A stretch of DNA of 64,000 nucleotides, taken from the NCBI GenBank assembly GCA_002118135.1, contig BDIU01000292.1, positions 1 to 64,000 of the forward strand. The letters are read 5' to 3'. The DNA comes from Trebouxia sp. TZW2008 (lineage: Eukaryota > Chlorophyta > Trebouxiophyceae > Trebouxiales > Trebouxiaceae). The translations under genes were made by a program, and so were the position numbers. Under the pieces are notes generated by a model, which saw nothing but the letters and a program-made list of their open reading frames with translations, made no database searches and was not told the origin of the DNA. Below are positions 564-64,000 of this stretch, one piece after another. How positions within the stretch are numbered: position 1 is the stretch's first letter; the number at the start of each line of letters is the position of its first letter.

Positions 564-3500
564 ATGCTGCACCTTGCCAAACGTCTTGCAGCGCGTGTGT
601 CTCCTTCTACCTCTCCGTGCGGTCGCCTTAGCGTCAGCGACAGCCGGTGTCGCCTGTGCCATCGGCCCTTCGATTTCATCCCGGCCCGAAAACTGCAACA
701 CAACTTTCCAGCGTCTGCACACTTGCAGAACCCTGTTTCAGCCACTTCAACCGCACCTGTGGTCATGCCAGAGAGCGCCATTCAAGATTTGCAGCCTCAA
801 GCCCTGTGGGAGTACTTTTACGCACTAACTCAGCTCCCACGACCGTCAAAATGTGAAGACAAGTAAGCGATGCATAAGTGATCACAGCTCCATCAATATG
901 CGCATGGCTCAATTATAGCTTGCCTGAATCTCCTGCAAACTCGCTTACACATGAGCATGGTATTTCAGGGTGATAGCATACCTCATAGATTTTGCAACGA
1001 AGCGTCAGCTGCCATACAAGCAAGACAGCACAGGAAACATGGTCATCAAACGCCCAGGCAGCGGTGGTGGTGAGGATGCACCTGTAGTGGTCATACAGGT
1101 GACTGCAGTCGACATAATGCATCTCACGATGCATCATGTCCTAGCCACTCAGGCCTACATGCCGGTTATTGCTTTCAATTGCAACAAACCATTGCCCTCA
1201 GCTGCTTTATGTCAAATGCATGCGTCGGCCATCATTACTTGTTCAGCAAGCGTTGCATGGATTTTGGCAGCATGCATGGTCAAGCATGCACTTTTGAGCA
1301 TGCATGGTTCAGCATGCATTGTCCTCAATGCGTCGTCCAGACTGCATTGCTCAGCATGCAGCCTTCAGCATGCGTTGTTTGGACGCGTTGTTCAGCATGC
1401 ATTTCCGTGCATGCACAAATCAGACTGCGTTGTTCAGACTGCGTTGTTCAGCAGGCTATTGTTCAGCATGCATTGTTCAGATTGCACTTTGAAGCACGCA
1501 TACATCAGACTGCATTGTTCAGCATGCGTTGTTCAGCAAGCATTATTCCGCATGCATTGTTCAGCGCAAATGGTTCCACATGCATTGTTTAGGGTGCATT
1601 GTTCAGCAATCAATGTGCAGCATGCGTTGCCCAGCATGCATCATTCAGCATGCACTGTTCAGCACGCATGACTTTTGGAGCAGCCTTGCTACGCTCTGCA
1701 TGTGTGCAGGGTCACATTGATATGGTGTGCGAGAAGAACAATGATGTTCAGCATGACTTCAACAAGGATGCATTGAAGCTGATCAGGAAGGGAGAGTGGT
1801 TGAAAGTAAGCCCGCAGTGCTCCTTTAATTGCTGCAAAACACCAAGTCTGCAGTCGATGTGAGAATGCATGTCCAGAAGACATGAGGGCGCATGCATAAG
1901 TGATGTGCATGCAACAGAAGCACTCAAGCCTGCAAAGTTTGAAACAACCAAATTGCACAAGACATGAGAGCACTTGCATCATTGTTGTGAAGTGTCCAAC
2001 TGAGCACTGTGTGATGTTTTACTAGTTGATTGGTACCTGTGCCCGCACAAACGCGAGGTAGGTGTGTGCCTGACGCAGACAGCAGCATCTCAGTACAATT
2101 TAGCATGGGTGCTGCTGCTGCTTATGGTGCTGCTGCCCATCAATATAACATGCGCAATCAGTAGATGAATGTTTGGTGCATGATCCAGTAAGCTCTCTTT
2201 GTAAGGACACTTGATGTAAGGACAATTTTGATGTAAGGACAACGCCATTGGTAACCAATCACTGCATTCTGACTGCAGTGGTCCCTCTGAGTAAGGACAA
2301 TTTGATGTAAGGACAAATTGCTTGGTGACCAAAGCAGTTGTTACAAAGAGAGTTTACTGTACAGGCTGATGGCACAACCCTGGGTGCTGACAATGGCATT
2401 GGGGTCGCAGCGGCGCTGGCTTTGCTGGACATGCCCCAGTCAGCCAAGCTACCTCCCTTGGAGTGCCTCTTCACCATTGATGAGGAGACTGGCCTCACAG
2501 GCACGTCGACGAATAGCTCACAATAATAAAGATAGTCATAGTAATGCAAACGTCACGAACAACAATTAAGTTGACAGCTACAGCTATTGCGCTTGGAATG
2601 CCTGTTCACCACCAATGAGGAACCTGGGCTCGCAGGCATGCAAAAGCAATCCATTTCAACAGGTACATGGACTTCCCTTGGAGTGTCTGTTTGCTGTAGC
2701 TGAGTAGACTGACCTTACAGGTACATTAGCAAATGCATGAATTGGTAAATGAATGAATGAAAGAACATACATAAAGTTTTAGTCAAATGTGTAAAACCTC
2801 AGCGGAGAAATAACTGAACACGTCAATGTATGTCAAATTCACCACAATTCCAGGCTTGCTGCTGTTATAGTCAGGACACAAACGAGGTCTGCGCCTGTAT
2901 CTGTTGTTGACGACATGGTCAACAGAAGGCTGATTACAACCCTGTTTGGCAACCTGTCCCTCATGCCAGATTCTTGCCAGTACCTTTTAGACACCTGGCC
3001 TTTGGGTGCAGTTGCTACCTGCCACCTCACCATGCTTTCACAAGTAACTGTGCTGAAAAGCCATTCCAACTAAGCAGCACCATTGAGAACAGCTCCACTG
3101 CTGGTCCTGCAAGTACGCACTGCATTGCAAGAGCGTGCACGTCACACAGCAACGCCGTCAGTAAGCACAGGAAGCCTAGCATCTGTGTGGGTCAGTGCGG
3201 GTGCCGATGCACTGGACAAAAGCCTACTGACAGTCTGGGCGCTGCTGAAGCTTGATACAACGTGGGACTGCGGGTGCATTTGCGCTTGATGATAGTCTGC
3301 TGACTGGCAGGACACTGTTGAACCTTGGCACAGTGACAGTGATTCATTAGCAGCAGCAAGCACAGCAATGTTGTGCGTGACTGCAGGTGCCTTTGGACTA
3401 GACGTAGCCTGTTGACAGGGCGGACGCTGCTGAACCTTGACACAATGTGGGATTGCAGGTGCATTGGGCTTGATGGAAGTCTGCTGACCGGCAGGACACT

Positions 3501-6500
3501 GTTGAACCTTGACGCAGTAACAGTGTTTATTAGCAGCAGCAAGCACAGCATCTTTGTGCGTGACTGCAGGTGCCTTTGGACTAGATGGTAGCCTGTTGAC
3601 AGGGCGGACGCTATTGAACCTTGACACAGAGGACTGGGGAGAGATCTTCATTGGATGCGCAGGTCAGCACCAGTTTGCCTTGTTGGAGGGTGGTCACTGG
3701 TCTTCCTGATGCAGAGTTGCTGCCATTGCTCTACAATTTGCACTATATGGCTTGTTTGGCTTGTGTCATGTCATGCATTATGCATTGTACTGTTCCTATA
3801 CAAAAAGCTTACGCTAAGAGCAAATGCCACTGCCAATTGTAAACAAACCCCCGTGAGTGCTTGAAAGACTCAATGACATGGATGTGCAAGAGGATTGTGC
3901 ATATTCTTGATTCTCATGGGCGTTGAAATAGCTATGCAAGATCTGGCACATGCAGTTTGTGAGTGACAAGGATCTGCACTGACTCTACAGATTTGCAGCC
4001 GCTGAGCTGTAAAGAGCTTTGCAGGAGGGGGCACTCCATAATTTGAGCTGCCTGTACAGCTAGAGGCCCCCAAAACACCCGCTCCTGCCCCAACAGCTCA
4101 AAAGTCAGCAGCCTGAGTATAATTGGATAGGGGACAGCACTCATTTATTGAGCTTTGCAGGAGGAGAAGATTCAAGCATTCAGCTGCCTGTACAGCTGGA
4201 TGACCCCCCAGACACCCCCTCCTACCCCCCGCAGCTCGGTGTCTCGTTCAGCATTGATGTGGCAGAGCACTCTACCATTGAGCTTTGCAGGAGGAGAGGA
4301 CTTGAGCTTTGCAGCTGGAAAACCCTTCCACTCCTCCCCCCACCCCCCACCCCCCACCCCCCACCCCCCCTCTCCTACCCCCAACAGTTCAAAGTCAGCG
4401 GCCTCATTGAGCTTTAATGGGGGAGAGCATTCAACTTTTGAGCTTTGCAGCAGGAAGGGGCTCAAACGTTGAGCTGCCTGTACAGCTAGAGCGCGGTCCC
4501 CCTTTCCCCCTTTTCCCCCCCCTTCCCAAACATGCCCTCCTAGCCCAAAGTCAGCAGCCTCATTAAGCTTTAAAGGAGAGCACTCACTCATTGAGCTTTG
4601 CAGGAGGAGGGGACTCAATCATTGAGCTGCCTGTACAGCTAGAGGGCCCCCCCAACACGCCCTCCTACCCCCAACAGCTCAAAGTCAGCGGCCTCATGGG
4701 CGGTCACTCAGGCTTGAACATCAGTGAAGACAGGGGCAATGCTGTTTCCCTGGCGACTCAAGTGCTGCTGGCAATTGTCAAGGCCCACCCAGACGTGCAT
4801 ATCATTAGCTTGACAGCTGGTGACAAGCGCAATGCCATTGCACGTGAGGCGTCAGTCATCCTTGAGGTTAGTCAATGCAATCTTTCACAACAGAAAGCAT
4901 GCATTACATCAAAATAGACCCATGCTTGTTGTGCAACCAGCTTCTGCGTCTGAGGCTGCTCACCTGCTGCTGGCTATTTCAGAGGCCTGCCCGCATGTAC
5001 GCGTTATCAGTTTGACAGCTGGCGACAAGCGTAACGCTATTGCAGCTCAGGCGTCAGTCGTCCTTGGGGCAAGCCGCCATGTTTCATGCGTTCTTGGGCA
5101 GATGAGTCATCATCACACTGTGTCAAAGTGCTTCTGGCTGTTGTCAAAGCCCTTGCAGATGTGCGCATCATCATTTTGACAGCTTGGTGGTAAGTGCAAT
5201 GCCATTGCATGGGAGGCATCAATCATCCTTCAGGTGAGAACACCATGTTATGAAGCCAGATTCAAGCAACTGCAGTGCATGTACCATGGACCTAATCTTC
5301 CTTTGCAGGTTCCTTCTGGGGAGACACGGAACCTGGTGCAGCAGCTGGTGAGTCAGCAAGCGCTTTCATTGAAGGAGGAGTATGGTCATCTGGAGAAGGA
5401 CCTGAACATCCATGTATATGACCATCCTGAGCGCTCTTCGTCCGTGCTTACGCAAGACAGCCAAACCAAGCTGCTCACACTGCTGACAACTTTGCCGCAT
5501 GGGGTTATCAAGTGGTCGCATGCTGTTCCTGGTAAGTATGACGTCCTTCCATCTCACCCTCTAAGCCTGAATGTTGTTGTTTTGACCGAGAATGTACAAC
5601 TGCTGTTGAGAAGACTGAGACATCCACATTTGAGTGCTCTGCCTCAGTGTTTACTCAAGACACTAACACCACGCTGCTCACCTTACTCACAACTCTGCCT
5701 CATGGGGTCATCAAATGATTGCATGCTGTTCTTGGTGAGTGTAATCTGCACACAAGTGCTCTGCTCCATTGCTGACGCAAGACAGCCCAAGCAAGCTGCT
5801 CACCTTGCTGACCACTTTGCCAGACTGAGTCATCAAGTGGTCACATGCTGTTCCTGGTGAGTGTCATGTCCAACCGTTCTTAAGCTGCTCACCGTGCTGT
5901 CAAGTCTGCCACGTTGAATGTGATGGTGGTCACAGGCCTAGTGGAAACTTCCAACAACCTGGCAGCAGTCAAGCCTAGCACGACTAGCAGCTCCGAAACC
6001 AAATACACCATCACCTGCTCCACTCGCAGCAGCCTAGCACATGCCATGGAGGTGCAACGCACACGCATTGCTGCCATAGCCAAGCTGTGTGGCGCTACTG
6101 TTGCTCAAGACAAGGCCTACCCTGGTTGGGCCCCTAACCCTGCCTCCCCCGTCCTTCAGGTGGGTTCGTGACAACGTTACTTTGATGCTTCAGGGTGTGC
6201 CTGTATAATAATATATATATATATAATAAGTATAATAAGCATATAATAAGTGTCGTGTTGTCTTACCACTATGGGAATCTTGTTATGTTCACGGTGAACC
6301 CTCCTGAAGGTTCACCTTTGAGTCGTGGGTTTGCTGAATCATTCCATTGGTGTAGCTTGCCTGCTTGCTTTTCCAATCATGCCATCATGACGAGGTGGGG
6401 TGACTTTAACTGTTTTGCTGGTGAGTGCAGCATTGAACTGTTCAAGTTCTGTGTTTCAGCTTGCCTGCTTGCTGTTACTGCGATAGCCCAATGTGTAGGG

Positions 6501-8016
6501 CAAGCATTTCTCTGCAAGGCATCCTGCCTGGTAGCAGGCAACCAACCACATAGCAACAGAGTGATAAAGCAACAGTCTGACTCAAGACCTGATCTAGAGA
6601 CCTGTTCTCTAGGTCAGAGGTCAGTTGCTGAGTCACTCTGTTGCTAAACGGTGGACTGCCTGCTTCCTCACGCTGCTATAGCTCAGCTGTGTGGGGCTGT
6701 TGTTTTGGCACCTACCCCGCCCTCCCCCGTTCTTCAGGCAGGTGTGGCGCTAACCCCGCTGTATTGTGACTGATTGCTAGCCTGCTTGCATCCCCTTCAT
6801 GCTGACAAAGGGCTGTCTGGGGCACCCTGGTCCACCAGTCAGTCACTGTGTTGCTCGACCCCCTGTATCCCTGGTGGGTTCATCATTCAGCTTCTGAGCT
6901 TCTAAGACCCACCAGTATTCTGCTTGTCTTTAATGCATACATTGCATTTGACAAAGCAGATGACAGTAGATGACAAAGCAAGCGTTTCAGCAGCTTTTAG
7001 GCAAAGAGGCAAAAGTGGCAGCCATACCTGCTGGCCTGGAATGCGGTACCAATGCTGATACATTCCAAAAATGGTTGCCAAACCTCAAAGCAGCATTCTC
7101 CTTGTGAGCTACAATCAACATGCTGCATGCTGCAGATGACAAACCAAGCGTTTTGGCAGCCTCTGGGCTAGCGGCAGCTAATGATGCTGATCTGCAGCAT
7201 CCACTGGAGACAAGGTTTCAAGAATGGTTGGCCAGTCTCAACGCAGCACTCTGCTCGTTGCTGAGCTACAATCAACATGCTGCATGCTGCAGATTACTAA
7301 GCAAGCGTTCCAGCAACTCCTGGGCAAAGAGCCCAAAGTAGCAGCCATTCATGCCGGACTGGAATGTGGGATCATTGGTGAAAAGGTTCCCGGCATGGAC
7401 GCCGTCTCATATGGCCCTACCATCACAGGAGCACACTCACCTGACGAGCAGGTCTGCATTTTGACTGCAATTGGCATCTTGTGTTGCTCTGTAACTTCTA
7501 GCAACATGCATCAGGAATGGACGCCGTCTCATATAGCCCTAGCATCACAGGGAGCACACTCACCTGATGAGCAGGTCTGCATCTTTACTGCAATTGGCAT
7601 CTTCTGTTGCTCTATACCTACTAGCAAAATGCATCAGGAATGGACGCCGTCTCATACTGCCCTACCACGACAGGCGCACACTCACCTGATGAGCAGGTCT
7701 GCATCTTCACTGTAAAAGGCATCTTATGTTATCTTGCATCGTAAAACTTTTTGGTAAAATGAGCAGTCATGTCTCTGCTGCTGTAGAGCTGTGGGTGCCG
7801 TGTTGACTTCTGCTGAGCAATGGCCCTTTAATTCAATGTACACAGTGGTTGGAATCACAATTCATTGAAAACAACATGTAAAGTTGCTGCACCAGTGCAA
7901 GACAGGCAGGACTAATCACCACATTGTTGGCCTTGCAGGTCAAAATCAGCACAGTGCAGCCTTTTTGGGAGGTCACTCTGAACATTTTGGAGACTTTGGC
8001 TGCCAAAAGGCAGTGA
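564..8016 (+). CDS. PepD-type cytosolic non-specific dipeptidase / Xaa-His dipeptidase (M20 family), 10 exons
   Basis: Predicted exons: 564-862, 969-1098, 1710-1805, 2365-2500, 3570-3662, 4604-4866, 5309-5531, 5936-6159, 7293-7451, 7939-8016. All phases join into 566 aa. The family hydrolyses dipeptides with a co-catalytic zinc pair. Landmarks: GHIDM near residue 144 (metal His and nearby Asp), LGADNG with the bridging Asp near 184, DEETG near 214 (general-base/metal Glu pair), GGHSG in the lid domain, HAGLECG near 508 and GAHSPDE with the last metal His near 536. The order and spacing fit PepD. The roughly 65 residues before MPESAIQDL are Arg/Ser-rich and could be an organellar transit peptide; a start at 765 would remove them. 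The intron after 2500 needs a GC-AG donor. Nearly every intron contains degenerate copies of adjacent exon edges. The product is confident; its location is not. Confidence 0.93.
1255..1680. repeat. Minisatellite in dipeptidase intron 2, unit about TTCAGCATGCATTG
   Basis: About 30 degenerate head-to-tail copies of a 14-15-base unit built around GCATGC and TTCAG fill most of the intron between 1098 and 1710. The array contains few stop codons, so long open frames run through it in several registers, including one continuous with the preceding exon. The coded Cys/His/Met-rich sequence matches nothing I recognise. I treat it as intronic because the flanking exons join in frame directly (VVIQ to GHIDM). 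Confidence 0.85.
2186..2359. mobile_element. MITE-like element with roughly 19-bp terminal inverted repeats, abutting a splice acceptor
   Basis: The ends begin CAGTAAGCTCTCTTTGTAA on the left and, read from the other strand, CAGTAAACTCTCTTTGTAA on the right: one mismatch in 19. The interior repeats 'gatgtaaggacaa' and carries no ORF. The CAGT ends resemble Tc1/mariner-type elements, but a clean TA target duplication is seen only on the right (TA follows; TC precedes). The right end stops 5 bases before the start of dipeptidase exon 4 (2365). A related copy lies at 32679-32878. Confidence 0.7.
2585..2735 (+). repeat. Two donor-side echoes of dipeptidase exon 4
   Basis: Segments at about 2589-2645 and 2675-2715 resemble the last 50 or so bases of the real exon 4 (CTTGGAGTGCCTCTTCACC onward) and continue through its donor, but carry substitutions and, in the second, an in-frame stop. 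The real donor reads ACAG|GCACGT and the second echo ACAG|GTACAT, so the copies differ at the splice dinucleotide. Confidence 0.75.
3215..3560 (+). repeat. Acceptor-side echoes of dipeptidase exon 5
   Basis: At least three degenerate copies of the start of exon 5 lie upstream of the functional copy at 3570. They repeat 'tgactgcag' acceptor, 'gtgcctttggactaga' and 'ctgttgacagggcggacgct'. None has the GGATGCGCAG|GT donor end of the real exon. The echo around 3388-3440 is nearly identical to the real exon for its first half. Confidence 0.8.
4010..4600 (+). repeat. Four acceptor-side echoes of dipeptidase exon 6
   Basis: Copies beginning near 4010, 4148, 4273 and 4430 repeat 'attgagctttgcagga', 'gctgcctgtacagctaga', a C-rich stretch and 'caacagctcaaagtcagcggcctcat', matching the first 90-100 bases of exon 6 (4604 onward). 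A pure-C stretch at 4330-4376 has expanded in one copy. Only the copy at 4604 continues into GGTCACTCAGGC, the GGHSG lid motif. Confidence 0.85.
4955..5240 (+). repeat. Two donor-side echoes of dipeptidase exon 6
   Basis: Copies at about 4960-5075 and 5130-5235 resemble the end of exon 6 (GACAGCTGGTGACAAGCGCAA and onward) up to the ATCCTT...GGT donor region. The first still encodes a close variant of the peptide; the second contains indels. The exon body upstream is absent from both. Confidence 0.8.
5585..5910 (+). repeat. Donor-side echoes of dipeptidase exon 7
   Basis: Two clear copies (about 5625-5735 and 5755-5862) and a remnant near 5875-5905 repeat the last roughly 90 bases of exon 7, from the CTTACGCAAGACAGCC region to CATGCTGTTCCTG|GT. 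The first two carry in-frame stops within the repeated segment. Confidence 0.8.
6551..6646. repeat. Imperfect hairpin in dipeptidase intron 8
   Basis: Outer arms TAGCAACAGAGTGA and TCACTCTGTTGCTA are perfect complements over 14 bases. Further in, ACCTGATCTAGAGA faces TCTCTAGGTCAGAG with partial pairing. The roughly 96-base foldback has no ORF and may be a snap-back duplication or a tiny inverted-repeat element. The same intron (6160-7292) also has a degraded echo of exon 8's end near 6666-6742 and echoes of exon 9 at 6945-7260. Confidence 0.6.
6945..7260 (+). repeat. Two acceptor-side echoes of dipeptidase exon 9
   Basis: Copies at about 6955-7100 and 7120-7255 repeat 'atgctgcagatgacaaa..caagcgtt' and stretches matching GCAGCC...GGACTGGAATG of exon 9, which really begins at 7293. 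Both lack the functional 3' half with the conserved HAGLECG to GAHSPDE segment and donor. Confidence 0.7.
7500..7705 (+). repeat. Two donor-side echoes of dipeptidase exon 9
   Basis: Copies at about 7508-7590 and 7632-7702 closely repeat the last 65-70 bases of exon 9, from GGCATGGACGCCGTCTCATA to CACTCACCTGACGAGCAG|GTCTGCAT. Both keep the donor sequence and carry a one-base difference that breaks the frame before GAHSPDE. The true exon ends at 7451 and splices to 7939. Confidence 0.85.
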
Positions 8017-17211: not shown

Positions 17212-20200
17212 TCAAGTTCTTTGTTTTTTGCTATTCTGGTCGTTGCGCCCCCCAGGCCTCTTTGAGCCACCGTGCTGTGACTTGCCACTCTTCTTGTACA
17301 GCTTGCTCTCTTTTTGGGTGTTGCCTGTCTCAGGAGCCTTTTGACTGTTGCCGCTTTTGACATTCACAATGCCACTTGTAGGAACAGCTCCATCTTGTAG
17401 TGCATCATCAAAGTCGGCATCCCTGCCCATAATCGCATACTGCTGCAAGTCCTCTGGCTTCAGAGCCTCCCTCATGGCATCATTTGCTGCCTGCAGTCAA
17501 CAGGCATGCTTTGAATCAGTCATAGCTGAAACCAACCGGCTCTGAAGCAACACAAACACATGACACAGCCGTTCAGGCATATCACAAAAGCCATGTTGAA
17601 TAGGTGCACATTCAATGCATTTCACAGCGCTCAATTTGAGGGCTGGAGCTGAGCCAGAGGTGTCCAAAGTGGATGAGTCTGTTTGTGAAGCAAAAAAATG
17701 CAACTTTTGACACATGTCAACATCCTTGTTGATGTCATATGTTGGGTTCGGCATGGTGCTGGCAAGCACTGATGCGCTGCTGCAGGGGCGTCTCTATTCA
17801 GCATGCACTGGCCTATTGTGATCGTCAAGTGCAGTCTGTTCACAAGGGGACCGGAGGCAAGGCAGACCTGAGCGGTTTGATCAACCGTCCTCATCCAGGG
17901 TCTAATTAGAATACGAATGGCAATTTGCTAAAACAAATCTTCCAGGGTCAGATTATGCAGCATAAAATGCAAAGCACACCTGAGCAGCTTCATTGAGGTC
18001 CTCATCCAGGGTCTGCTCATGAGGTGTGAGGTTGATAGGCTTGGCTTGAGGTAAACTGCAGTCTACTGCAGCTTCCCTGACTGACTTCAGATGCCCATGC
18101 AACTTACGCACTGCCTGCATGAGGGACAGTCAGTTGATGTTTGGTCACATGCAAATCTGTCATTCTCTCTTTTCACTGTTAGGCTCTCGCTGAATGCAGG
18201 TGCCCATGCAACTTGCGCACGGCCTGCATTGCACATCAAAGCCCTGATCTGTTGTTAGGTTTTGACCAATACTAGCTTTGAGATTATAAAACGTCCATGC
18301 ATGCTTCTCATTGTACTTAATGTCTTTGTCCTGCTGGCCAGACAGAGAGCGTCCTACAAACACAGCAAGTGTGACATGTTGACAACAGATTGCCATGTTG
18401 TAGGAAGCAGGTGTCTGATTCACTGGCAGCAGGAAGGTGCGCTGCAGGGCAGAAATGTACACGCTCAGGCAGCCAGTGTCTCGTGTCCAGGGGAGCTATC
18501 GCAGATTAACAGCAGGATATCTTGTTGAACAGAGCCGTTTCCTGAACGTTGTCAGTTGAAGGGCGAGTTGAAGAGCTAAGATGTCAACATGTAGATGGCA
18601 AAGTGTTTGACGTGGACAAGCAGTGCAGAAACAGCATGTAGCAGCAGCTGTGTGTGCCTTGTTGAATAGAGCCAGTGGCTGATTTGCTGGCAGCTGTAAA
18701 GCAGGTTGCAGAGCCAACATGTCATTCTGTTGAAGGGCCAAGCTGAGCAGAATGGAAGCTCTGTCTTTTGGAACAGATGCGTACCTGATCAACTGGCAGC
18801 ATACCTTAATTGAAAAAGCCAGTGGCTGATTGGCTGGCAGCTGTAAAGCAGGTTGCAGAGCCGAGACGTCGTTCTGCTGCAGACCAACGCTGAGCAGGAT
18901 GGCGGCTTGCAGATAGACATGACATACACATACATAGAGTGTCCGAGGAACACAGAAGTTTGCATGCTGACACAAAGCGTCACACATTGACAAGAAAATG
19001 AACTTGTTGAAAAGAGCCAGTGCCTGGCTGACGGGCAGCTAAAAAGCGGGTTGCAAAGCTGAGATGTCATCCTGCTGCCAAGATGTTTTTCTGCTTCAGG
19101 CAGCAAGTGATCCACATATACAAACAGTGTCTACATGGGACAGGCAGCATGCCTTGTTGAACAGAGCCAGTGCTTGATTTGCTGGCAGCTTAAAAGCAGG
19201 TTGCAAAGCTGAGATGTCATCCTGCTGCAGGCCCAAGCTATGCAGGATGGCGGCTGGCAGATATAGAATGACATGCACAGACATAGTGTGATAGGAAAAT
19301 GCACAAAGCATCACACATTTACAAGACCAGTACCTTGTTGAAGAGAGCCAGTGCCTGGTTGGCCGGCAGTTGAAAAGCAGGTTGTAACGCTGAGATGTCG
19401 TTCTGCTGCAGGCCCAAGCTCAACAGGATGGCAGCTTGCAGGTAGGACAGGTTCACCGGGATGTGGCCGCTGAAGTAGGACTGCGCCAGGGTGGGTAGCA
19501 GGTCCAGGATGATGTGATGGTCAACCAGGTTGTTGGAGTAAGCCTGTAGGCACAGCAGGTCTTCAGCATTCCTCAGAACCTCAAAATCCTAGCAGCCTGA
19601 GCATTTCTCGTCATGTGTTGATCAAGCAAACCTTGTTTTTGATCCTTGCTTAGTATAGGTCAGATCATACAGATTCGCTTGGGGTTTGACTGTCAAAACC
19701 TCAACATTAGACAACACTAGACAGTAATGCAGAACAGCAAGGAAAACAATACCTGCAGCCGTTTGAGATCATACGGTGACAATACAGAGCTATCAGCCTT
19801 TCTGACAGGCACCCCCTCTTGGGCCCCCTCCTTCTCCCCCCAAGTCAGCTGGGGATCCAGGATGGACAGGGCCAGGGCGGGGGCAAAACTGCGAAAGGCC
19901 GCTGCTAGCAGAGTCAGGAATCGGGTCTTGAAGTCTTGTACGAAGGGCTGAACCCAGGAAGTGTCCTCCACCAGTTGTGACTGCAGTGCTTGTAGCATCA
20001 CCACTGTATGCTCACCTGCATAGCGTACATAAATATGAAAACATGAACACAATGATACAGTGGTTGAATGAATTTCCCATTGGAAGCAGGAGCAATCGCG
20101 CAGAAGCACAGCTGCCCCAGAACGCTGCATATGACTGCAACAGCAACATCAAGTCCGAGGTGCAACAAGAACAAGAAGAGCAGACAATGGTTTGACACAC

Positions 20201-44700: not shown

Positions 44701-47253
44701 TGCTTGAAGCTCATCACGCAATGACTCACCTTGAGGCCTCCTGTGGAAGTGTACAGCACCACGGTGAAGGGGATGATGAAGATAGCTGCATAGATGTTCA
44801 TGCCTGCACACATCCACACACACACGTTTTGATGCCAACTCAACAGTCAATGCTACTGCCAGTGACTGTCAATGAAATTCACTTTCTGTGAGCCCTACCT
44901 GACATGTTTCATGTAAGCATACTTTGCACACAGCAAACATGGGAGGAAGCACAGCTTGACATCAACAGGACGTACACCATAAGCTGTGCATTTAATTGCG
45001 TTGCATTTTGTGCAGAGAATCACCCATGCAGAGATGAAGAGTGACGGACCGGTCAAGGCGGTGATGACGGCTGATCCACCCAGAATCAGCTGACCCGCCA
45101 CAATGACAGCAGTAACCATCAAGAAGTAGAAGAACACCTGCAGCCACGACAGGGCTTGTGGAACTTTGGGCAAGCTATCCATGTCACTTTTGTTGCAGAC
45201 GAACCTGAATTGCAGAGTCTTTGTCAAAACATGCTGTTGCCATTTTCTGCAACTGATCAACACTGCAACTGCCTGGACCCACGTGCTAGAAGGGAAGATC
45301 AACACTGTGTTGATTGATGTTGACATTAGTTGCTCGCGATATTAGTTGATACGATGCAGATCATGCTAATGAGCTGAGACTCAGCATTACCAGTCTTGCT
45401 CCAGTTCCCCATCTCGCTTGCACAATCTCCAGCACCGTGTGGGCAGTTGGAGCTCGTTTCTGCAGCCACTCAAAACCATCATCACACTAGCAGAAGCAAC
45501 ATGTGTATTTAGGGTTTAGGGTTAAACCCTAAATATAGGTAAAGCAGAGGCTTGCAAGTTGATACTGTCAAAGCACTCTGTCTCGTCTTTGAGACATTGC
45601 ACAAGCACATTGAACTATAGGAAAGCGATCATCCACAGTGACTGCAATGATGGGCACGATGCAGCAACACAAAACAGCTGTGTTGCCATTCCCTTCCGGC
45701 TTTGAGCCAATACTGCAATTGCAAGCAACACTGCCATTGCAAGCAACACTGCATTTGCAAGCAACACTGCAACAGTGGCATCTACAGCGAAACCTGCAAA
45801 ATTTGAGCTTGGTGCAGCACCTTGATATACACAGCAAGGATTCCAAAGCAAAGAATTTGGACCACAGCTGCTCCAGCATACCAGTAGGGCCCTGCAATGC
45901 CCTGCAAAATGTATGCAAGACCTGAACCTAAGTTGAAAATCTGAGCGCAAATTAGCTCATGCTGCAAGGATTTCATTGTCCAGGACGGCACAGGCACTCG
46001 TGCATTGGCATACACTTGAAGTTGTATGCATCAAAGTCTTCTTCTTCCTCAGGCGCTGCAGGGATGAGCTGAGTGTGGCAGTCTGACAAACTGTGGCATG
46101 AAGCGTTGCGTGCGCTACAAGTGCAGTGTGATGGATCATCAGGTTGATTGACACAGCTGCAGGGTATCTGTATAATTTCTGATGCAGTCTTGTTTGCAGC
46201 ATGTGCAGAACATGTCGTGATGTCAAGCTGACACTAGAAACAAAGCTTGAACTGTCAGAGAGTTGATGACATAAGGACAAAGCAGGTGCAGAGCTCACGT
46301 ATTGATAAGCTTGGTTGGCTGACTGCAGGAGAGTGCTACTCCAAGTCCAGTGAGACTGAATGTCCACAGAGATCAAACCTGTAGCAGATGACTTGGGACA
46401 CTCGTGAAACTAATATTGGCAGCATGCGGATGAGAATCCAATGACGAGCCAATCGCAGTGCTTAGCAAGCTGGTGTGCATGAACATACAAGATCAAAGAC
46501 GATGTTGGATGTTTCAGGCGACAATTTGCAGATTCATAAGTTGCAGAGCAAGGTGGCAGTGTCCAACCTGTCTTGACGCTTCTTCCAGCTGTGTTGAAGT
46601 GCTCACTATTATACCTGCGCAGCACAGTCAATTGCTGATTCAGTGCTGTTGCAGAATCATTACTATCTGCTGCGTATGCATTTTGGTGGCAGTGCAGGCG
46701 AGGCTACAGATTGCCAGACAGCCTGATGACCGGCACAAGAAGCAAAGCTGTTGCGCATGGCAGATGCATCTTTAAACGTTGATGCGCAGCATTTTCGGGA
46801 ACGTGGCCGATGCTGTGCAGCTGCGCAGTGACTGTTTGCAGGCGTTAAATGTAGACGGTTACAGTCGCTACGTACTTTGTGGCGCCCCATCGCCGATCGA
46901 TTTGCACAAGGGTGACGGTCAAAATGGTGAAGAATGCCGCGATGCCGATCACCAGCGGGTATCCGACCTTGTAGCTCAACGGGGGTTGGCCTCCGAAGAA
47001 GGAAGACTTGTAGTCGTACTGGTGTAGCCTGCGCAGCGCACAAACACCAACATTGACGTAGACCCACTGCAAAGCCGATGAGCAACCCAGTGCAAATGCT
47101 GTGATTCTTGAGTGGAGCTAGCCGCAACGTCAGCACGCAGGCATCGTAGCGATCAGCTGCACATGCCGCGCCTCTCGGTCACGCATTTGAGGCCAAGACA
47201 GCAGCTTCAAAGAGTGACACATACCCAAACAAGTTGGGCTCGTTGATCGGCAT
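38716..47253 (-). CDS. DUR3: DUR3-type urea/proton symporter (SSS family), 19 exons
   Basis: Exons in transcript order: 47225-47253, 46876-47028, 46568-46614, 46299-46378, 45821-45901, 45391-45459, 45050-45137, 44730-44803, 44395-44425, 43630-43833, 43255-43348, 42928-43016, 42558-42642, 42051-42090, 41650-41778, 41202-41319, 40154-40386, 39600-39740, 38716-39030; 699 aa, in frame throughout, TAG stop. The family is a plasma-membrane high-affinity urea/H+ symporter of about 15 helices. DUR3 landmarks: [132 protein letters not shown] and GYFYFWVI. Exon 9 is only 31 bases. The first exon codes for [10 protein letters not shown]; its frame stays open upstream without another ATG, so a longer N-terminus from an unseen exon cannot be excluded. 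Confidence 0.93.
39110..39225 (-). repeat. Acceptor-side echo of DUR3 exon 19
   Basis: 'gattcaatggtgtacagcgttgttttgactgctgccgctagg..gccacgcaaagctcaaaatgacccaggagtagaagttc' is a diverged copy of the first 90 bases of exon 19 (39030 downwards) with its CTGCAG acceptor. Confidence 0.8.
39545..39581. repeat. Perfect 15-bp inverted repeat with 7-base loop in DUR3 intron 18
   Basis: TTTGTTGACACACAT at 39545-39559 and ATGTGTGTCAACAAA at 39567-39581 are exact complements around TTGCTAT. It lies 19 bases beyond the exon 18 donor. No terminator function is implied in a eukaryotic intron; a snap-back origin is plausible. Confidence 0.95.
40710..40825 (+). mobile_element. SINE-like dispersed repeat, copy B
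   Basis: Same core as copy A (GGAGACAGTTGATTGC, GTACCTAGTTGGGC, GCTGAGCCTGCCTAG) with a degenerate AATGAAATGAAC/AATGCATGAATG tail. It lies in DUR3 intron 16, antisense to the gene. Confidence 0.65.
40820..41112 (-). repeat. Three donor-side echoes of DUR3 exon 16
   Basis: Copies at about 41060-41112, 40912-40962 and 40828-40850 repeat plus-strand 'gatagctgcaaatttgccggtcttggcccatgtgattgc', the end of exon 16 (41202-41319). The real donor, minus-strand T|GTAGGT at 41202/41201, is supported by phase: it gives FAAIFSAFVGQG across the junction to exon 17. Confidence 0.8.
41465..41660 (-). repeat. Echo of DUR3 exon 15 with (GGGCA)n microsatellite
   Basis: 'catcttgtcaaagatgacaatgatgcaggccatgaccagaacaata' (41470-41515) is a diverged copy of the exon 15 end (41650 on). 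Between the two, GGGCA repeats (41526-41576, 41611-41648) have expanded from the GGGCAGGGCAC donor flank. Another GGGC(A/G) tract is in intron 11 at about 43176-43247, beside exon 11's donor. Confidence 0.8.
41830..42050. repeat. CAG/CAA-rich low-complexity tract in DUR3 intron 14
   Basis: Mixed AGC/AAC/AAG triplets give an open plus-strand frame coding mostly Ala and Lys (41814-42080). It is antisense to DUR3 and purely low complexity, so no gene is called. Confidence 0.75.
43885..44325 (-). repeat. Three acceptor-side echoes of DUR3 exon 10
   Basis: Copies at about 43893-43985, 44112-44182 and 44250-44318 repeat plus-strand 'ccaatcttgctgctggtggtgtaggtcacaaacatgaagatcagcagcacaatgaaaatgatgactgca', the first 70 bases of exon 10 (43833 downwards) with its acceptor. 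The copies remain open and code for the [14 protein letters not shown] helix segment. Confidence 0.9.
45506..45535. repeat. Interstitial telomere-like palindrome (TTTAGGG)2/(CCCTAAA)
   Basis: The 30-base stretch contains two direct TTTAGGG units running head-on into CCCTAAA, forming 13-bp arms TATTTAGGGTTTA / TAAACCCTAAATA around GGGT. TTTAGGG is the plant-type telomere unit also found in many green algae. It sits in DUR3 intron 5. Confidence 0.9.
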
Positions 47254-51045: not shown

Positions 51046-51327
51046 TTCTGCTCTTGATGTGCAGCACTACCTTAAAATCAGATGCGCACTTTCATCACAA
51101 TCGCAATGGCTCGCGCTGTTCACTACTTGTAGTCATTCTGGTCGAGGCCTTCCGTGATCACTGAGCTTGAACGATATTTCGCTCACGCGCTGGCACGTGC
51201 AGGGGCCCATTTAATTGCCAAAAAACGGCTAATTTTTGCCATGGTTTCTGCGATGATCCTGTGTTAGGTCACTGCGACAGCGTGCGCGACGTTGAACGAC
51301 CTGAGATTGCATCAAGTCCATTGCAGC
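51046..51327. promoter_or_regulatory. Compact divergent promoter between dioxygenase and selenium-binding protein genes
   Basis: The two start codons are 282 bases apart on opposite strands. A CACGTG hexamer lies near the middle (51194-51199). No gene is inside. Shared regulation of two redox enzymes is possible but not shown by sequence. Confidence 0.5.
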
Positions 51328-54300
51328 ATGGGCAAAGGAGCAGCCAGTACGTGTTGCCAAGGTCCCGGCTATGCAAGTCCGCTGGTGAGAGCGCGAACAT
51401 ATCAAACCGAGCTGCAGACCACGACAGTTGCGCGCTTGCAATTCGTGTCGCAGCTGGGATAAATCGAGCTGTAGATGTCCTAGTCGTACAAAACTGCTGC
51501 AGCGCAACCACGGCCGAGTCAAACAAGGCTGAGGCTTGTCGTGCACGCTTGCGCAGGACGCCTTCCAGCATGGCCCTCGCGAGACGCTTGCATACGTTCC
51601 TGCGGTGCAGCCGAGAGAGGACAAGCCTGATTACTTGATGACGATTGATCTGGACCCAGCTAGCGCAACGTATTCACAGGTACGGCCATGGTTTTGAGCA
51701 GACCCCTGCTATAGATAACGATCAGCCTGCAGGCAGCTATTTGCAGATCTAGTGCCGCCTATGATGCAACGGGCTGAACATTTTAAACTTAATGCAAGAA
51801 ACGACTGTTTCTCAAATCAAAAACATCTCTTTTGTTGCTCAGGTCATACATCGCCTGCCAATGCCCTACAAGAACGATGAGCTACATCATTCAGGCTGGA
51901 ATGCGTAAGTGCCTTCTTGCTGCTGTCACTCTGGCTTGCAAACTACTGATGTGACCCTCTGGCCTGCAAAAGACTGATGCAGTCCTGTTGTCCTTGATGG
52001 ATCTTTAGATGCTGTGCTGTTGTCACTGCTCTCTGTTATGGGCTTCATGATCCCACAGATGGGCAATGCCAGCCTGTGTCATGAAATGCATCATATCACA
52101 GATGGTTGACTTCTGTCCGCAAGCCTGGATGATTGCTGCAGATGCAGCAGCTGCCATGATGACAGCAGTCGGGCCAGAAGCCTTCTCATCTTGCCAGCAG
52201 TTGGCTCAGGCCGCATATACGGTGAGCACTAGTGCTAGTCTTGGAGAACAGTGACCTTGCCAGCATGCCAGCAGCACCAGTACTCGCACAGTGCAGCGCC
52301 CTCTCAGGACAACCAAAACTGCTCTGCTAGCTGCACTCCTTCTGTCATCGTAAAAGCTGCTTATCTGGCAATCAGTTGGCTCTCACAACGCAGCAACTTG
52401 ACCAGCGTGCTAGCAGCAGCCTCAAAATGTGGCGTCCTTGCAGAACATTTTGACTCACTTTGCTAGCTGTTCTCCTGCTGGCAGACCTGCACATATTGTT
52501 CGACGACTCAATTGCATGACCCTTGATTACAAGTCACAAGTGCAGCCTCAGCATTGCCTCATTGCACTTACTGCAGCTCATCTTTGGCGCAGCCAACAGA
52601 CAAAGTTGTTGTGACTCCTAGCAAAGTGCGCTCCTTTCTCAAATAACTGAGTGCATCTTGATTCAGATCACCCTGTTTAGATTTTGTACATAAGCAACAA
52701 AAGATTTTATGTGTAGTGCTTCCCCTTTCTAAGAGATGGCCTACACTCATGATCTTCAATTTTGCTTGCAGCTGTGGACACAGCAACAGACCCAAAGGCA
52801 CCTAGAATTGCCAAGATTGCTGAGCCAGAGGAGATACAGAAAGCGACAGGCTTGGCGTACTTACACTCCTCGCATTGCCTGGGTTCCGGTGACATCATGG
52901 TCAGCGCTATGGGGGATCCAAATGGCAAGGGATCAGGCAACTTCATCCTGCTCGACCAAGATCTCAAGGTCAGTGATTGATGCTTTTTGGCGCTGTGTAT
53001 GCCTGTCTGTGCTTCTGTGAGTTTGCCTGCCTGACTGTGTCCTGGTGGCATCATGGTCAGTGCTATGGGAGACCCAGATGGCAAGGGATCAGGCAAGTTC
53101 ATCCTGCATGGAACAAAGATTTCAAGGTCAGTAGCTTATGCATGCTGTTCAGAAGTTCATGTATCTGTGCGGCTCTGAGTGTGTCTGTGCATCTACGTGT
53201 CTAAATTCTGTGGGTCTGTGTGTCCGTGACATCATGGTCAGTGCTATGGGAGACCCAAATGGCAAGGGATCAGGCAAGATCATCCTGCTTGATCAAGACC
53301 TCAAGGTCAGTAGCTCATTCATGCTGTTCATTGACCTATGCGTCTGTGCGACTGTGCATGTGTGCATCTGTGTCTGTCTGTGTGTACGTCTGGGACTACA
53401 TGGTCAGTGCTATGGGGGATCCAAATGGCAAGGGGTCAGGCAACTTCATCCTTTTCAACCAAGATCTGCAGGTTGGTGGTGATAGACGGACTCTGCTTGA
53501 GTGTTCACGCTTCTGTATGTATGTCTGTGATTTTCTGTATGGCCAGGCTATGTGTCTGTACATCTGTCTGAAGCCAGCTACTGAAAGGGGCAGGCAACCT
53601 CATGCTGCTTGATCAGGAACTCAAGGTCACTCAATGTAAATTGTGTTGCTGCTGCATTTGTGCATGTGTGCGGTTGTCACGTTATGGTGAGTGCCATTGG
53701 GGATGCTGCCAACAAGGGGCAAGACACGCCATCTTGCTTTGACCAAGATGTCAAGGTCAGCACTTTATGCACACTGTTCATTTGTTGGCCCTTGTTGATT
53801 GCATGACTGTATGTATGTCTGTGTCTCTAGGTGTCTGTTTGACGCCAGCCAGTGAAGGCAGAGTTAAGCGGCTGATAAATTCCGCAAACTTGACAGACAG
53901 CAACAGTATTCTGCATCAGTGACATTGTTGACGAAGTGCAGTGTTGCTTCAGGTGAAGGACAAGTGGGCAGACACAGCAACACATTTTGACTGCCTGTGC
54001 AAAGGATAGACTGAAACCAACAGCACACCATGCATGCCTTGCATGAGAGCCTCAGCGAGCTCAGCTTAAGAAAGATTCCTGTGTTGTCACTTGTAGACAT
54101 ATCCATATATCAACAGTGTCATGGTGTTCCAGGTGAAGGGCACCTGGGCAGACAAAGCAACACAGTATGGGTATGACTTCTGGTACCAGCCCCGCCACAA
54201 TGTCATGGTCAGCTCGCAGTGGGGAGACCCACTGGAGTTCACAAAGGTGAGCCTTGTATCATGTGCAGATGGAACTTGCTTGTGTACGTGTGCACAGATC

Positions 54301-56945
54301 TTATCTGCATATTGAAGCACCAAGCCTTCTGCAATCACCAACATCAGTTGAATGTATCCCCTCCGCAATTCCCAAAACATGAGATTTGTGAAGGCAATGA
54401 AACAAATTGTCTTGTATGTCCGCACTTGGTTGAAACAAAGCCTTTGGGCACAATTGCAATACAGATGTTTGGCACAGCACTGCCAGTCAACCCAATTTGC
54501 TTTCACACCATTCTGACTGCAGAAGTTCAACCCAGCTCTTGTGCCGATGTCATATGGCAACACCCTCACCTTTTGGGATTGGCAGAGTCACACCATCCAT
54601 AGCTTTCACATCCTGACTTGAGGAACTCTAGCGTTGTCCTTGGAGAATCCAAGTAGGCCAGATTATGGGATGCCGTTTTTGTATGACAGTGTTGAGCTGT
54701 CGTGATTCCTGCATTTGCTTGCAGGGTTTTGACCCAGCCCTTGTACCAACATCACTTTCTGGGACTCGCACCATACATAAGATTCACGACACACGTTCGT
54801 GAAACTAGCACCGCCCTTGCAAGATCCAGCTCAGATGCCGTCTGCTGATACTTACACCTGACTACCTTGAATGCTGCTTTTGCTTTCAGGGTTTCAACCC
54901 AGCTCTTGTGCCAACGTCATATGGTGACACTCTCACCTTCTGGAACTGGCAGAAACACACCATTACTCAGCAGATCAAGCTAGGTGCAGATGGCTTGATT
55001 CCCCTGGAGACCAGATTCCTGCATGAGCCCAGCCAGCCCCAGGGCTATGTGGGAGCAGCCTTGTCCTCCAATGTCATCAGGTTTAGTAAGGTCAGCCATT
55101 TTGCCATGGTGATGTTACTAAACCAGACTCCTGCATGAGTCCAGCTAGCCTCAGGAGTTTGTTGGAGCAGCCCTGTCCTCTAGTGTCATCCAATTTGGTA
55201 ACATGAATCATATTGCAACCTGCTTGACGGGCAGTCCTGTTCTCAAAAACCATCAAGTTTTGTAAGGTCAGATCTGTCCTCCGATGTCATCTAGTTCAGC
55301 AACTTATAGCAAAGGTAGTCACATTATGATCTATGTTTGAAGAGGTGCTGCTGTGCAGGGTGCAAGCGACAAGTGGGAAACTAATGTAGTCATTCGACAA
55401 CCCTGGACTAGGGTGGAGGGTTGGATTCTGCCAGAAGTGCCCCCCCTCATCACTGACATCCTTATCTCCCTTGATGACAAGTTCCTCTACTTCTCCAACT
55501 GGCTCAGAGGCGACTTGGTGCAGTATGACATCAGTGACCCCGCCAAACCCCGATTTGTGTCCCGCATCTGGTTGGGGGGCGTTGTTGGGGCTGGGGGGCC
55601 CATCAAGGTGAAACCCTGCATTGACCCTACATGTTCTCTTTGTACATCATCTTTAATTTGAAGGGAGAGATGCAAAGGGCAGGGGTGATGTATTGTGACC
55701 CCGCCAAACCCTGCTTTGTATCCTGCACTGGCCCCGGGGGGTGGCAAGGGCCAGGGGGACCCATCAAGGTATGACCCTGAGCTTGGAGCTTTTACAAATG
55801 ACCATACGCACTCATGCCGTGGCTCTAGATGAGCTGCTATTGTCATGACGCCTTCCAGTTTGACCTATTGATTCGCCTCTCACTGTTGTTCCCATTATTC
55901 CAATAGTGACAATCAGGGTAGCCAAGGACTGATGACACAGCTGACGTGACTGTCTTGCATTGACCTGAGCACAGCTGTGAGTCAAGACATCTATCGATCA
56001 ATCATAGATACCAAGCAAGGCAGTCAGCAAGCGATCAAGCAAGCAAGCCAGCACGTTCTTGCTGCAGGTGCTAGGAGGACTGCCTGACGACACTCCGGAG
56101 CTGCCAGCAGTGCAGCACGTGAAGGGACACACATTGGAGGGCGGACCCCAGATGATTCAGCTCAGGTCAGTTGCCTGTGTCTTATGAGCATTCCCTGTTA
56201 TTGCTGCTGCCTGTTACTATCAGTGATGGTGGTGGTCTTATTCATCTGGTTGGTACATCTTGATACTGTGTTCCAAAACCTCTACTCTGATTTGCCAAAG
56301 CGTGGCTCCTATCTGCTGCACATAGATATGAATTCTGGAAAAAGTTGTGGCAAGCATTTTCACCTGATAATGACTTTGTGCATGCTCCTGCAGCTTGGAT
56401 GGCAACAGATTGTACATCACCAATTCCTTGTTTTCCTCTTGGGACAAGCAGTTCTATCCTGAATTGCCCAGGCACAATTCCTACCTGCTGTGTGCTTCAA
56501 CCAGTCTTTGAGCAGATTCAATGCCAAAGGTCTCTGCTGCATGCTTCAACCGCTGTGGCAAGCAGTCATGCCTGACTCTTGTGATCGCTGCTGCAGCTTG
56601 TTCTCACAGCAGGATCAGAAATGGCGGCCTGTTTTGATTTCAAAAGCTGAGAAAGCTGTTGCAACCATTTCTACCCGATAAAATCTTTGTGATTGCTGCT
56701 GCAGCTTGGATGGCAAGAGGTTGTATGTCACCAATTCCTTGTTCTCCTCTTGGGACAAGCAGTTCTACCCTGACCTGCCCAAGCATGGCTCCTACTTGCT
56801 GCAAATAGATGTGGATACAGACAAGGGGGGATTGACTCTGAACCCAGATTTCTATGTTGACTTCGGCGCTGAGCCAGATGGTCCTGTTTTGGCTCATGAG
56901 GTTCGGTATCCTGGTGGAGACTGCTCAAGTGATATCTGGCTGTAA
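51328..56945 (+). CDS. Selenium-binding protein 1 / methanethiol oxidase family, 10 exons
   Basis: Exons: 51328-51384, 51557-51679, 51843-51904, 52142-52221, 52772-52968, 54133-54246, 54890-55090, 55359-55607, 56068-56165, 56705-56945; 473 aa, almost exactly the length of human and plant SBP56, TAA stop. Human SELENBP1 oxidises methanethiol to H2O2, formaldehyde and H2S. Landmarks: [50 protein letters not shown] (the conserved CSSC cysteines, residues 82-85), [72 protein letters not shown] and [12 protein letters not shown] at the C-terminus. The start was chosen because ATG at 51328 gives [19 protein letters not shown] and splices in phase; the longer overlapping frame from 51261 is out of frame with exon 2. 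Echo arrays flank exons 5, 6, 7, 8 and 10. Confidence 0.95.
53035..53765 (+). repeat. Five donor-side echoes of selenium-binding protein exon 5
   Basis: Copies at about 53047-53128, 53228-53308, 53397-53472, 53583-53628 (partial) and 53680-53757 repeat 'gacatcatggtcagtgctatgggggatccaaatggcaagggatcaggcaacttcatcctgc', 'gaccaagatctcaag' and the GTCAG donor. Functional exon 5 ends at 52968. The third copy keeps the frame fully open. Intervening sequence is a decayed TGTGTCTGT-rich stretch. Confidence 0.92.
53930..54000 (+). repeat. Acceptor-side echo of selenium-binding protein exon 6
   Basis: 'gttgcttcaggtgaaggacaagtgggcagacacagcaacaca' copies the acceptor and first 40 bases of exon 6 (54133 on). 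Confidence 0.8.
54515..54810 (+). repeat. Two acceptor-side echoes of selenium-binding protein exon 7
   Basis: Copies at about 54520-54600 and 54715-54790 repeat 'gcagggtttcaacccagctcttgtgccaacgtcatatgg..acac.ctcaccttctgggactggcag'. Real exon 7 starts at 54890. Donor-side echoes of the same exon follow it at about 55128-55270 ('ctcctgcatgagtccagctagcctcagg' and remnants). Confidence 0.85.
55685..55775 (+). repeat. Donor-side echo of selenium-binding protein exon 8
   Basis: 'tgtgaccccgccaaaccctgctttgtatcctgcactgg' then 'gggccagggggacccatcaag|gta' copies the last 70 bases and donor of exon 8 (55607) with substitutions. Confidence 0.85.
56270..56640 (+). repeat. Acceptor-side echoes of selenium-binding protein exon 10
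   Basis: A clear copy at about 56388-56500 repeats 'cctgcagcttggatggcaacagattgtacatcaccaattccttgttttcctcttgggacaagcagttcta'. An older one at 56274-56345 repeats 'tactctgatttgccaaagcgtggctcctatctgctgcacatagat', and a trace near 56590-56700 is further decayed. The functional exon starts at 56705. Confidence 0.85.
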
Positions 56946-56969
56946 TTCTTCTGAGGGCAAGGTGCAATT

Positions 56970-57115
56970 TTGGGCACAAGATATTTGGTATTCAAGAGGA
57001 AGTTGTTCCAGCGATACTTGGCTGTAATGCTCTTGAGATTACTGTTTGGCTCATGAGGCTTAGTATCCTGTTGGGAACTTCTCAAGTGACATCTGGCTGT
57101 AATGCTGTTGAAAGA
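56970..57115 (+). repeat. Two echoes of the selenium-binding protein C-terminal end beyond the stop codon
   Basis: Segments at 56981-57030 and 57050-57108 restate 'gctcatgaggttcggtatcctggtggagactgctcaagtgatatctggctgtaa', the end of exon 10 including its TAA. Since no donor exists here, these copies lie in the 3' UTR or beyond. They show that the duplication process is not limited to splice junctions. Confidence 0.85.
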
Positions 57116-58006
57116 GCCACATGCATGGACGTGTTGCTTTTTGCCAAACGATGTACTTCAGCAGACACTGTACAGGGCCGTAGCAGGGTGCTCTATGCTT
57201 TGCCCTGGCTGTGAGCAGGACATCACATGTCTGATCTTGGCTTGCTTCTGATTTCTGTTGATTTGTGGCTGTCCAAAGCCAATGCATTCAAGCTTACCAT
57301 CGACACATTTGCTTTGTACGCTTGGGCCCAGGTGCCTTTCAGCACCAAGCCACTACCATGAATCTCACGCTGTTACAAGAGACTGCTGGCAATGATGAGT
57401 TGTGACTGCATGTCACGATGTTGACACTGCCAGGAGGTCTTATGCTGTTTATGTTCGAGAAGCTGTGTTTTCTATCTTGCTTGGCTCACAGAAAACTTGC
57501 TACTGCACCCAGAGTCCTGAGTCAGGAGGAGCCGTTTGACTTTCCAGACACTGTAGAATATATGCGCCCTGGCGACCTTGGTCTGTCATAGAGCTGTCAA
57601 TCTGTTGCATGGGGTTGCAACCGCCTAGGGCAGTATTTCTGCATAATGCATGATATACGATCTTGTAGGGTTCATGCTGTTGATGTGAGAGCAGCATGCT
57701 GAACACAGGTTTGCCTTGAAGTGACAAAGGTTGTTGGCATTGTGGCATTGTAAGGTTTCAACTCTGTAAATTCAAAGTCAATGTGTTTGTTACAGTATGA
57801 ACAAATTTGATAGAACCAGCAATGTAGAAGTGACCGTCTGTCCTCAAGTGAAGGGCCAAATGTTGTGTACATACAGTGCAACACATGCATAACCAAAGTT
57901 CAAACACAACCCTGACAAGTCGCTGTACAGATCGCTTCAGTGCCATGATACCAACACGCAACTTAGTCATCCTGCACATTGACAGTGCAAGCAGTTTGCA
58001 GCAACA
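57116..58006. other. Convergent intergenic region, selenium-binding protein and kinase 3' ends
   Basis: No gene or clear repeat is seen. Minus-strand frames at 57500-57748 and 57672-57896 are short and without recognisable protein character. Confidence 0.5.

Positions 58007-64000: not shown

Follow-up and report, generated by a model that had tools for sequence, protein, structure and literature searches.

The stretch of DNA analysed here (64,000 nucleotides of one contig of Trebouxia sp. TZW2008, hereafter the window) belongs to an assembly of 68.5 Mb in 527 contigs. Four of its genes were modelled: a PepD-type dipeptidase gene (564..8016, plus strand, 10 exons), the gene of the RNA cytidine acetyltransferase NAT10 (17215..29530, minus strand, 17 exons), a DUR3-like sodium/solute symporter gene (38791..47253, minus strand, 19 exons kept) and the gene of the methanethiol oxidase SBP56 (51328..56945, plus strand, 10 exons). 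Together with SBP56b, a paralog of the last with 12 exons on another contig (locus L042, C351:73000-82900), they make up the modelled set of 68 exons and 136 exon sides. The models of SBP56, SBP56b, NAT10 and DUR3 were obtained by splice-aware protein-to-DNA alignment with Trebouxia proteins (P0001 for SBP56, P0121 and P0125 for NAT10, P0241 for DUR3), and in all four the frame is unbroken and the introns are GT-AG or GC-AG. DUR3 is represented by 19 of 21 exons, two doubtful terminal exons having been dropped ahead of counting. The PepD model was built by hand; its frame is continuous to the stop, and the spliced protein covers positions 1-477 of the 478 of TIGR01893. The SBP56 protein gave PF05694 hits and is 89% identical to the homolog of Trebouxia sp. 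C0009 (P0001), and the NAT10 draft is 95-96% identical to proteins named Trebouxia over about 62% of the query.

A whole NAT10 protein is also encoded by the contigs of P0125 and P0126, which, at 5,153 and 4,279 bases, are too short for a gene of about 12 kb and are therefore probably transcripts. The segment FREVQLQEPI, encoded at the end of NAT10 exon 8 of the window (24245-24354, minus strand), is present in P0125, P0126 and Myrmecia (P0128) and missing from the annotated NAT10 of Trebouxia C0009 (P0121); judged by these sequences, the C0009 annotation is probably incomplete at this segment. The limits of exon 8 follow the second relative, and the end of the last exon was also revised. Copy and side counts are identical under the revised model, while the evolutionary and length analyses use the earlier exon 8, which is 33 bp shorter (summed intron length of 31,172 bp with the earlier and 31,139 bp with the revised exon 8). 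Introns starting with GC follow NAT10 exons 10 and 13 and PepD exon 4. Between PepD and NAT10 lies an open frame with an LpxC (lipid A deacetylase) domain (14474-14905, plus strand). Pfam domains are present in some open frames of the remaining four genes of the window, and direct-repeat pairs occur in the stretches of these genes, outside the five models. Rfam and tRNA scans of the 64-kb window gave zero hits, and a scan of viral contigs for other algal DNA gave zero relatives.

Anatomy of the exon-edge copies

The initial annotation had described degenerate tandem copies of the exons' own 5' or 3' edges in the adjacent introns. With an edge copy called at a score of at least 18, we found 74 copies in the adjacent intron or flank, at 37 of the 136 sides and 29 of the 68 exons. 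At the same score, the controls yielded 0/136 in the reverse complement, 2/816 in shuffled introns and 4/1600 in non-adjacent introns of the same gene; at the stricter score of at least 22, copies were still found at 33 of 136 sides and none of the three controls gave any. Chance or low complexity was rejected as a source on the reverse-complement and shuffle counts. The copies are thus real, although their attribution to most exons was overstated, the proportion at a score of at least 18 being 43%. Where one to six copies per exon had been noted, we counted one to five per side: 16, 12, 5, 1 and 3 sides carry one, two, three, four and five copies, respectively. When the window was compared with itself in 3-kb pieces, 105 local direct-repeat pairs and 0 inverted pairs were obtained (self-palindromes lying outside the filter), against a noise level of 20 raw hits with the reversed sequence, and direct repeats took up 20,841 of the 64,000 bases. 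With other settings, there were 196 direct and 6 inverted hits within 1 kb.

The copies are direct, hardly ever inverted, and always match the edge that faces them. Without exception, the 32 upstream copies correspond to the 5' part of their exon (29 of them within 8 bp of the edge) and the 42 downstream copies to its 3' part (36 within 8 bp), so that 65 of the 74 reach within 8 bp of an exon edge. None of the 74 copies holds both exon edges, that is, a whole exon. The rules that an echo carries one edge and never both, and that acceptor copies lie upstream and donor copies downstream, had been read by eye and were right, and so was the third, that the copy fused to the exon body keeps phase: with it, the frame stays open in each of the five models. 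The observation behind them is true. Median identity between copy and exon is 0.825 over the 74 copies. Among the 64 copies that reach within 4 bp of the edge, the exon part measures 33-116 bp (5-95%) and successive copies are spaced by a median of 152 bp (quartiles 113 and 179). The splice dinucleotide is retained in 20 of 28 acceptor copies and 22 of 34 donor copies, and where the true donor is GC, five of six donor copies also have GC.

In PepD, with all features on the plus strand, 6 of 10 exons have edge copies, 23 copies altogether. Exon 5 (3570-3662) is preceded by four acceptor-edge copies (3201..3517), in several of which the intron side is homologous as well, and exon 6 (4604-4866) by five copies of its 5' part (4023..4597), four of which reach the acceptor edge; two donor-edge copies of exon 6 follow at 4954..5233. 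Three donor-side copies of exon 7 (5309-5531) occupy 5631..5934. Exon 9 (7293-7451) has two acceptor-edge copies at 6970..7240 and two donor-edge copies at 7514..7696, the latter in a tandem array with a period of 123; the nearer of these is 93% identical in its exon part and 91% in its intron part, and by its sequence is best taken as a young tandem duplication. PepD intron 2 also contains a 14/28-bp minisatellite (1268-1669), which is unrelated to exon edges. NAT10 (minus strand) has 22 copies at 11 of its 17 exons. Exon 15 (19334-19543) is followed by five donor-edge copies (18521..19263), and exon 4 (26831-27027) has three acceptor-edge copies, 82-95% identical, at 27099..27647 and one donor-edge copy at 26623..26700, the intron side of which is without detectable homology. 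Single acceptor-edge copies reproduce 149 of the 228 bases of exon 6 at 86% identity (25769..25918) and 107 of the 132 bases of exon 5 (26253..26359). A perfect GCACA array of 15.4 units (25262-25338) adjoins the acceptor copy of NAT10 exon 7 at 25182-25261.

DUR3 (minus strand) is poorer, with 8 copies at 4 of 19 exons, among them three 5'-edge copies of exon 10 (43630-43833), 92-96% identical, at 43891..44304. For SBP56 (plus strand), 16 copies were counted at 5 of 10 exons. Exon 5 (52772-52968) has five donor-side copies (53032..53755), and exon 7 (54890-55090) has two acceptor-edge copies (54526..54772) and three donor-edge copies (55122..55302). Upstream of exon 10 (56705-56945), the stretch 56281..56490 holds an acceptor-edge copy (56394-56490) and an interior copy (56281-56333), and the stop-codon end of the same exon, a coding edge without splice site, is copied twice in the 3' flank (56961..57102). 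In the paralog SBP56b, edge copies are present at 3 of 12 exons. It has its own, mostly different set of copies compared with SBP56; a 201-bp exon common to both genes has donor copies in both.

Decay of the copies, intron length and a proposed selection filter

Changes private to a copy, scored at sites with at least two copies, numbered 104, 95 and 144 at codon positions 1, 2 and 3, where composition alone predicts 117, 112 and 114; changes private to the exon numbered 12, 3 and 32. Since positions 1 and 2 of the copies change almost as often as composition predicts, the copies are not coding and evolve nearly neutrally, while the exons are constrained; coding constraint on the copies was rejected by these codon-position changes. 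Over all copies, the codon-position skew is somewhat stronger than full neutrality would give, and the excess at position 3 can be due in part to exon-lineage change shared with younger copies. Pairwise differences between copy and exon amount to 0.151, 0.100 and 0.269 per site at positions 1, 2 and 3, figures in which an exon-lineage change is scored more than once if the exon has several copies. The copies carry 10 stops in 1638 codons and 70 indels, some of them frame-breaking, and by our own estimate their splice dinucleotides are retained about as decay predicts.

Introns with edge copies have a median length of 569 bp (n=27) versus 267.5 bp for those without (n=36; p=4e-5). Without the span that reaches to the farthest copy, the median falls to 263 bp, which is no longer different from that of the copy-free introns (p=0.16). 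In the five genes, these spans add up to 9,881 of 31,172 intron bases (32%), and they account for the difference in length between introns with and without copies. Of the proposal that local tandem duplication across splice junctions lengthens introns without changing the protein, because a copy with one splice site is not defined as an exon, the lengthening is thus borne out. Its reason has to be amended: the twice copied stop-codon end of the last SBP56 exon means that a splice site is unneeded, and a filter against change of the mRNA is the better formulation.

This filter was assessed with a model in which duplicated units fall uniformly on these gene structures with these spacings. Under this model, 55% of the units would lie entirely within introns, 26% would cross an edge and take in 25 exon bases or more, 6% would span a complete exon and 5% would be internal to one, so that about 8.5 whole-exon and about 7.7 inside-exon events are expected per 37 edge families. 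Against this, whole-exon copies are absent among the 74 (Poisson 2e-4), and none of the 61 exons of at least 60 bp has an internal direct repeat (Poisson 5e-4), which supports the removal of mRNA-altering events. Neighbouring exons resembled each other in 0 of 63 pairs. Internal repeats were absent from the five window and paralog proteins, and internal repeats of the type that a retained copy would leave were absent from all 17 related proteins (14 of them named Trebouxia).

The same model expects 2.1 pure-intron duplications per edge duplication. Repeats confined to the intron were found in 8 of 31 copy-free introns of at least 120 bp (above the null 99% score of 26.5), some of them simple tandem arrays, and that of DUR3 intron 16 touches an exon edge. 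With a detection difference of 1.3-1.4 taken into account, we would estimate about 24 pure-intron families, in roughly 14 of the 31 introns. Pure-intron duplications therefore look scarce, about twofold short with wide uncertainty; a near-absence of such duplications was rejected on the detection simulation and the direct count.

Homology beyond the junction and the rest of the genome

For a duplicated unit that straddles an edge, the match has to continue into the intron. Homology on the intron side was found in 20 of 64 copies in a first pass and in 20 of 62 edge copies when spans of less than 20 bp were left out, the control limit in both counts being raised by a few control scores in which an intron was compared with itself. 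By identity of the exon part, the proportions were 6/8 (at least 0.90), 4/14 (0.85-0.90), 5/19 (0.80-0.85) and 5/21 (below 0.80). When just the nearest copy per side was taken, they were 2/3, 1/8, 2/10 and 3/12 in the same classes, 8/33 overall. Across the four classes, simulated single straddling events gave 0.98, 0.80, 0.58 and 0.30 when indels were few and 0.83, 0.46, 0.24 and 0.12 when they were numerous. Summing the simulated class rates ourselves, we obtained expectations of about 36, 26 or 20 of the 62 copies at 0.16, 0.4 or 0.8 indels per substitution, where 20 were observed, and of about 19, 13 or 10 of the 33 nearest copies at the same three rates, where 8 were observed. The copies themselves suggest about 0.16 indels per substitution (0.08 per difference, doubled on the estimate that about half of the differences lie on the branch of the copy). 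The straddling anatomy is seen in most young copies; in older ones, the intron side has faded more quickly than expected from the simplest model. An intron side wholly without homology was rejected as a description, as most young copies have such homology and the higher-indel simulation approaches the data; the nearest copies alone (8/33) fall below even that simulation.

Some copies are mosaics. One copy of NAT10 exon 4 is 95% identical in its exon part and 66% in its intron part, and an upstream copy of PepD exon 9 is 72% identical in its exon part and 88% in its intron part. Values of 100% for intron parts that came from overlapping windows (e.g. SBP56 exon 7 copies 2 and 3, PepD exon 6 copy 1) are artefacts and were not used.

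To sample the rest of the genome, exon cores of chaperonins and kinesins served as anchors for 60 loci on 30 contigs, several loci belonging to the same gene. A copy lay within 1.5 kb of 14 of the 60 cores, corresponding to 16 of 120 sides at a score of at least 22, versus 0/120 in both the reverse complement and the shuffled sequence, and the direction rule held in 16 of 16 cases; two of these cases have a copy that begins no more than 5 bp from the core and may represent a coding repeat. Flanks of randomly chosen other loci gave 8/120 at a score of at least 22, with same-gene loci and paralogs among them, which probably explain these matches. The limit of 22 was used here because a score of 18 was too noisy (17 real, 4 reverse-complement, 4 shuffled and 15 matches to flanks of other loci per 120). 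The pattern with its direction rule was present on 12 other contigs. Profile searches, which involve no comparison of DNA, reveal it as well. Two examples picked by eye are an HSP70 gene on contig C150, in which profile positions 131-205 are preceded immediately upstream by 131-168 and 132-167, and an RNA polymerase subunit on C309, in which 180-251 is followed just downstream by 211-251, the latter with stops. At equal settings, local direct repeats occupied 28.7% of bases in the window, 9.4% in six other regions and 10.0% in the 60 loci (with some overlap). Direct pairs and inverted hits numbered 98 and 6, 24 and 4, and 113 and 24, respectively, the inverted hits being counted from both arms with palindromes included. 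The window is thus unusually rich, with about three times the local direct-repeat density of the other places sampled. The suggestion that a whole genome is built in this way keeps the part that edge copies occur elsewhere under the same rule, and has to be tempered by the threefold richness of the window.

Origin and meaning of the copies

We consider it probable that the copies arose by local tandem duplication crossing the coding edge, the copy that falls outside the mRNA being tolerated and decaying almost neutrally. This reading builds on the observed direction, spacing and decay of the copies and on the observed lengthening of introns. A background of short local tandem duplication, in direct orientation and with a spacing of about 110-180 bp, would act on nuclear DNA. 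When a unit straddles an acceptor, a donor or the stop codon, the copy beside the exon body would stay in the mRNA and the other would end up in the intron or flank; the protein would be unchanged and the event may survive. Selection would remove units that contain a complete exon or fall within one, since these alter the mRNA. The survivors would then decay almost neutrally in the intron, many still with a splice dinucleotide, and repeated rounds at one edge would build the arrays. Correct splicing would then depend on the choice of the first donor and the last acceptor, a choice that would be compatible with exon definition. Candidate molecular routes are slippage, microhomology repair and unequal exchange. 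The rules of the initial annotation follow from the geometry of tandem duplication and purifying selection against change of the mRNA, and the direction rule is no evidence for a splice-aware mechanism.

Several features of the copies also bear on a process anchored at the exon, with exon edges as preferred places for duplication or for subsequent exchange of copy and exon, e.g. by gene conversion or unequal exchange with the conserved exon as partner or by breakage linked to transcription or splicing; the exon part would then be renewed while the intron part drifts. Exon parts outlasting intron parts, the mosaic copies, the apparent scarcity of pure-intron duplications and the clustering of copies (three to five at 9 of 136 sides) would all be accommodated. 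We nevertheless judge such a process rather improbable, given that an end without splice site is copied too, that the scarcity is about twofold and comes from 31 introns, that much of the fading on the intron side would be accounted for if indels were more frequent in introns, and that nested tandem events alone may make mosaics and arrays. A wider proposal, that exon edges are the preferred sites of duplication and renewal, with conserved ends anchoring repeated unequal exchange so that introns grow outward in a self-feeding cycle of duplications, each about 150 bp long, that supplies a large share of the intron length of the lineage, seems to us unlikely.

We think it highly improbable that the copies are functional, be it as edges of alternative or mutually exclusive exons or as decoy splice sites that regulate splicing. 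The preserved AG or GT/GC (20/28 and 22/34 copies) and the slightly raised number of copy-private changes at codon position 3 could be cited for it, but positions 1 and 2 change nearly as freely as position 3, the copies contain stops and frame-breaking indels and never a whole exon, related proteins are without copy-derived repeats, and the retention of dinucleotides is about what we estimate for plain decay. It is scarcely credible that the copies are haplotypes or misassembled tandem copies, even in an assembly of 527 contigs, given that they differ from their exons by about 4-30% and show near-neutral decay with a median identity of 0.825, that the same directional pattern recurs on 12 other contigs, and that their inner end points vary and yet never yield whole exons. 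Copying of spliced RNA back into the gene was rejected as well: intron sequence flanks the copies, in most cases with AG or GT, and the placement predicted by the intron-gain model discussed below was seen for none of them.

Widespread small duplications within genes have reportedly been described before: the internal gene duplications of Gao and Lynch (2009), as cited in later work, concern duplicated coding segments and new introns. A tandem genomic duplication that crosses an intron-exon boundary is reported for the RdRp gene of potato (PMC4974935). The potato event is likewise junction-crossing, with the acceptor and the exon start duplicated. In the potato gene, a single event created a new intron and changed the exon, whereas the alga has dozens of events in five genes, gains no intron and keeps its protein unchanged, the copies becoming intron filler. 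In the Rogers model, introns are gained by tandem duplication of an exonic AGGT segment, with cases in Drosophila (PMC2891723). It shares with our case a short local tandem duplication with its protein effect hidden by splicing, and it predicts that the start of the intron equals the start of the next exon and its end the end of the previous exon. No edge copy lay within 20 bp of the far end of its intron in the 63 introns, a count that misses older cases below threshold. Tandem or mutually exclusive exons (PMC9013439) also give extra exon-like copies beside an exon; these are whole and spliced, in contrast to the alga, where none of the 74 copies has both edges. Among the matches listed in the PMC literature, searched by titles and the starts of abstracts, there was none to a genome described with pervasive exon-edge copies in introns. 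What is unusual here is the amount, single cases being already in print.

Gain in intron length is often ascribed to transposons or to unseen small insertions. In relatives of Chlamydomonas, long introns have no known driver, which PMC8226300 states as an open point. In Trebouxia sp. TZW2008, the source of intron length can be read directly. If the exon is taken as the slowly changing reference and its copies as near-neutral clocks, the rate, the size and the selection of small duplications become measurable, and the question is posed of how splicing chooses the right acceptor among up to five near copies.
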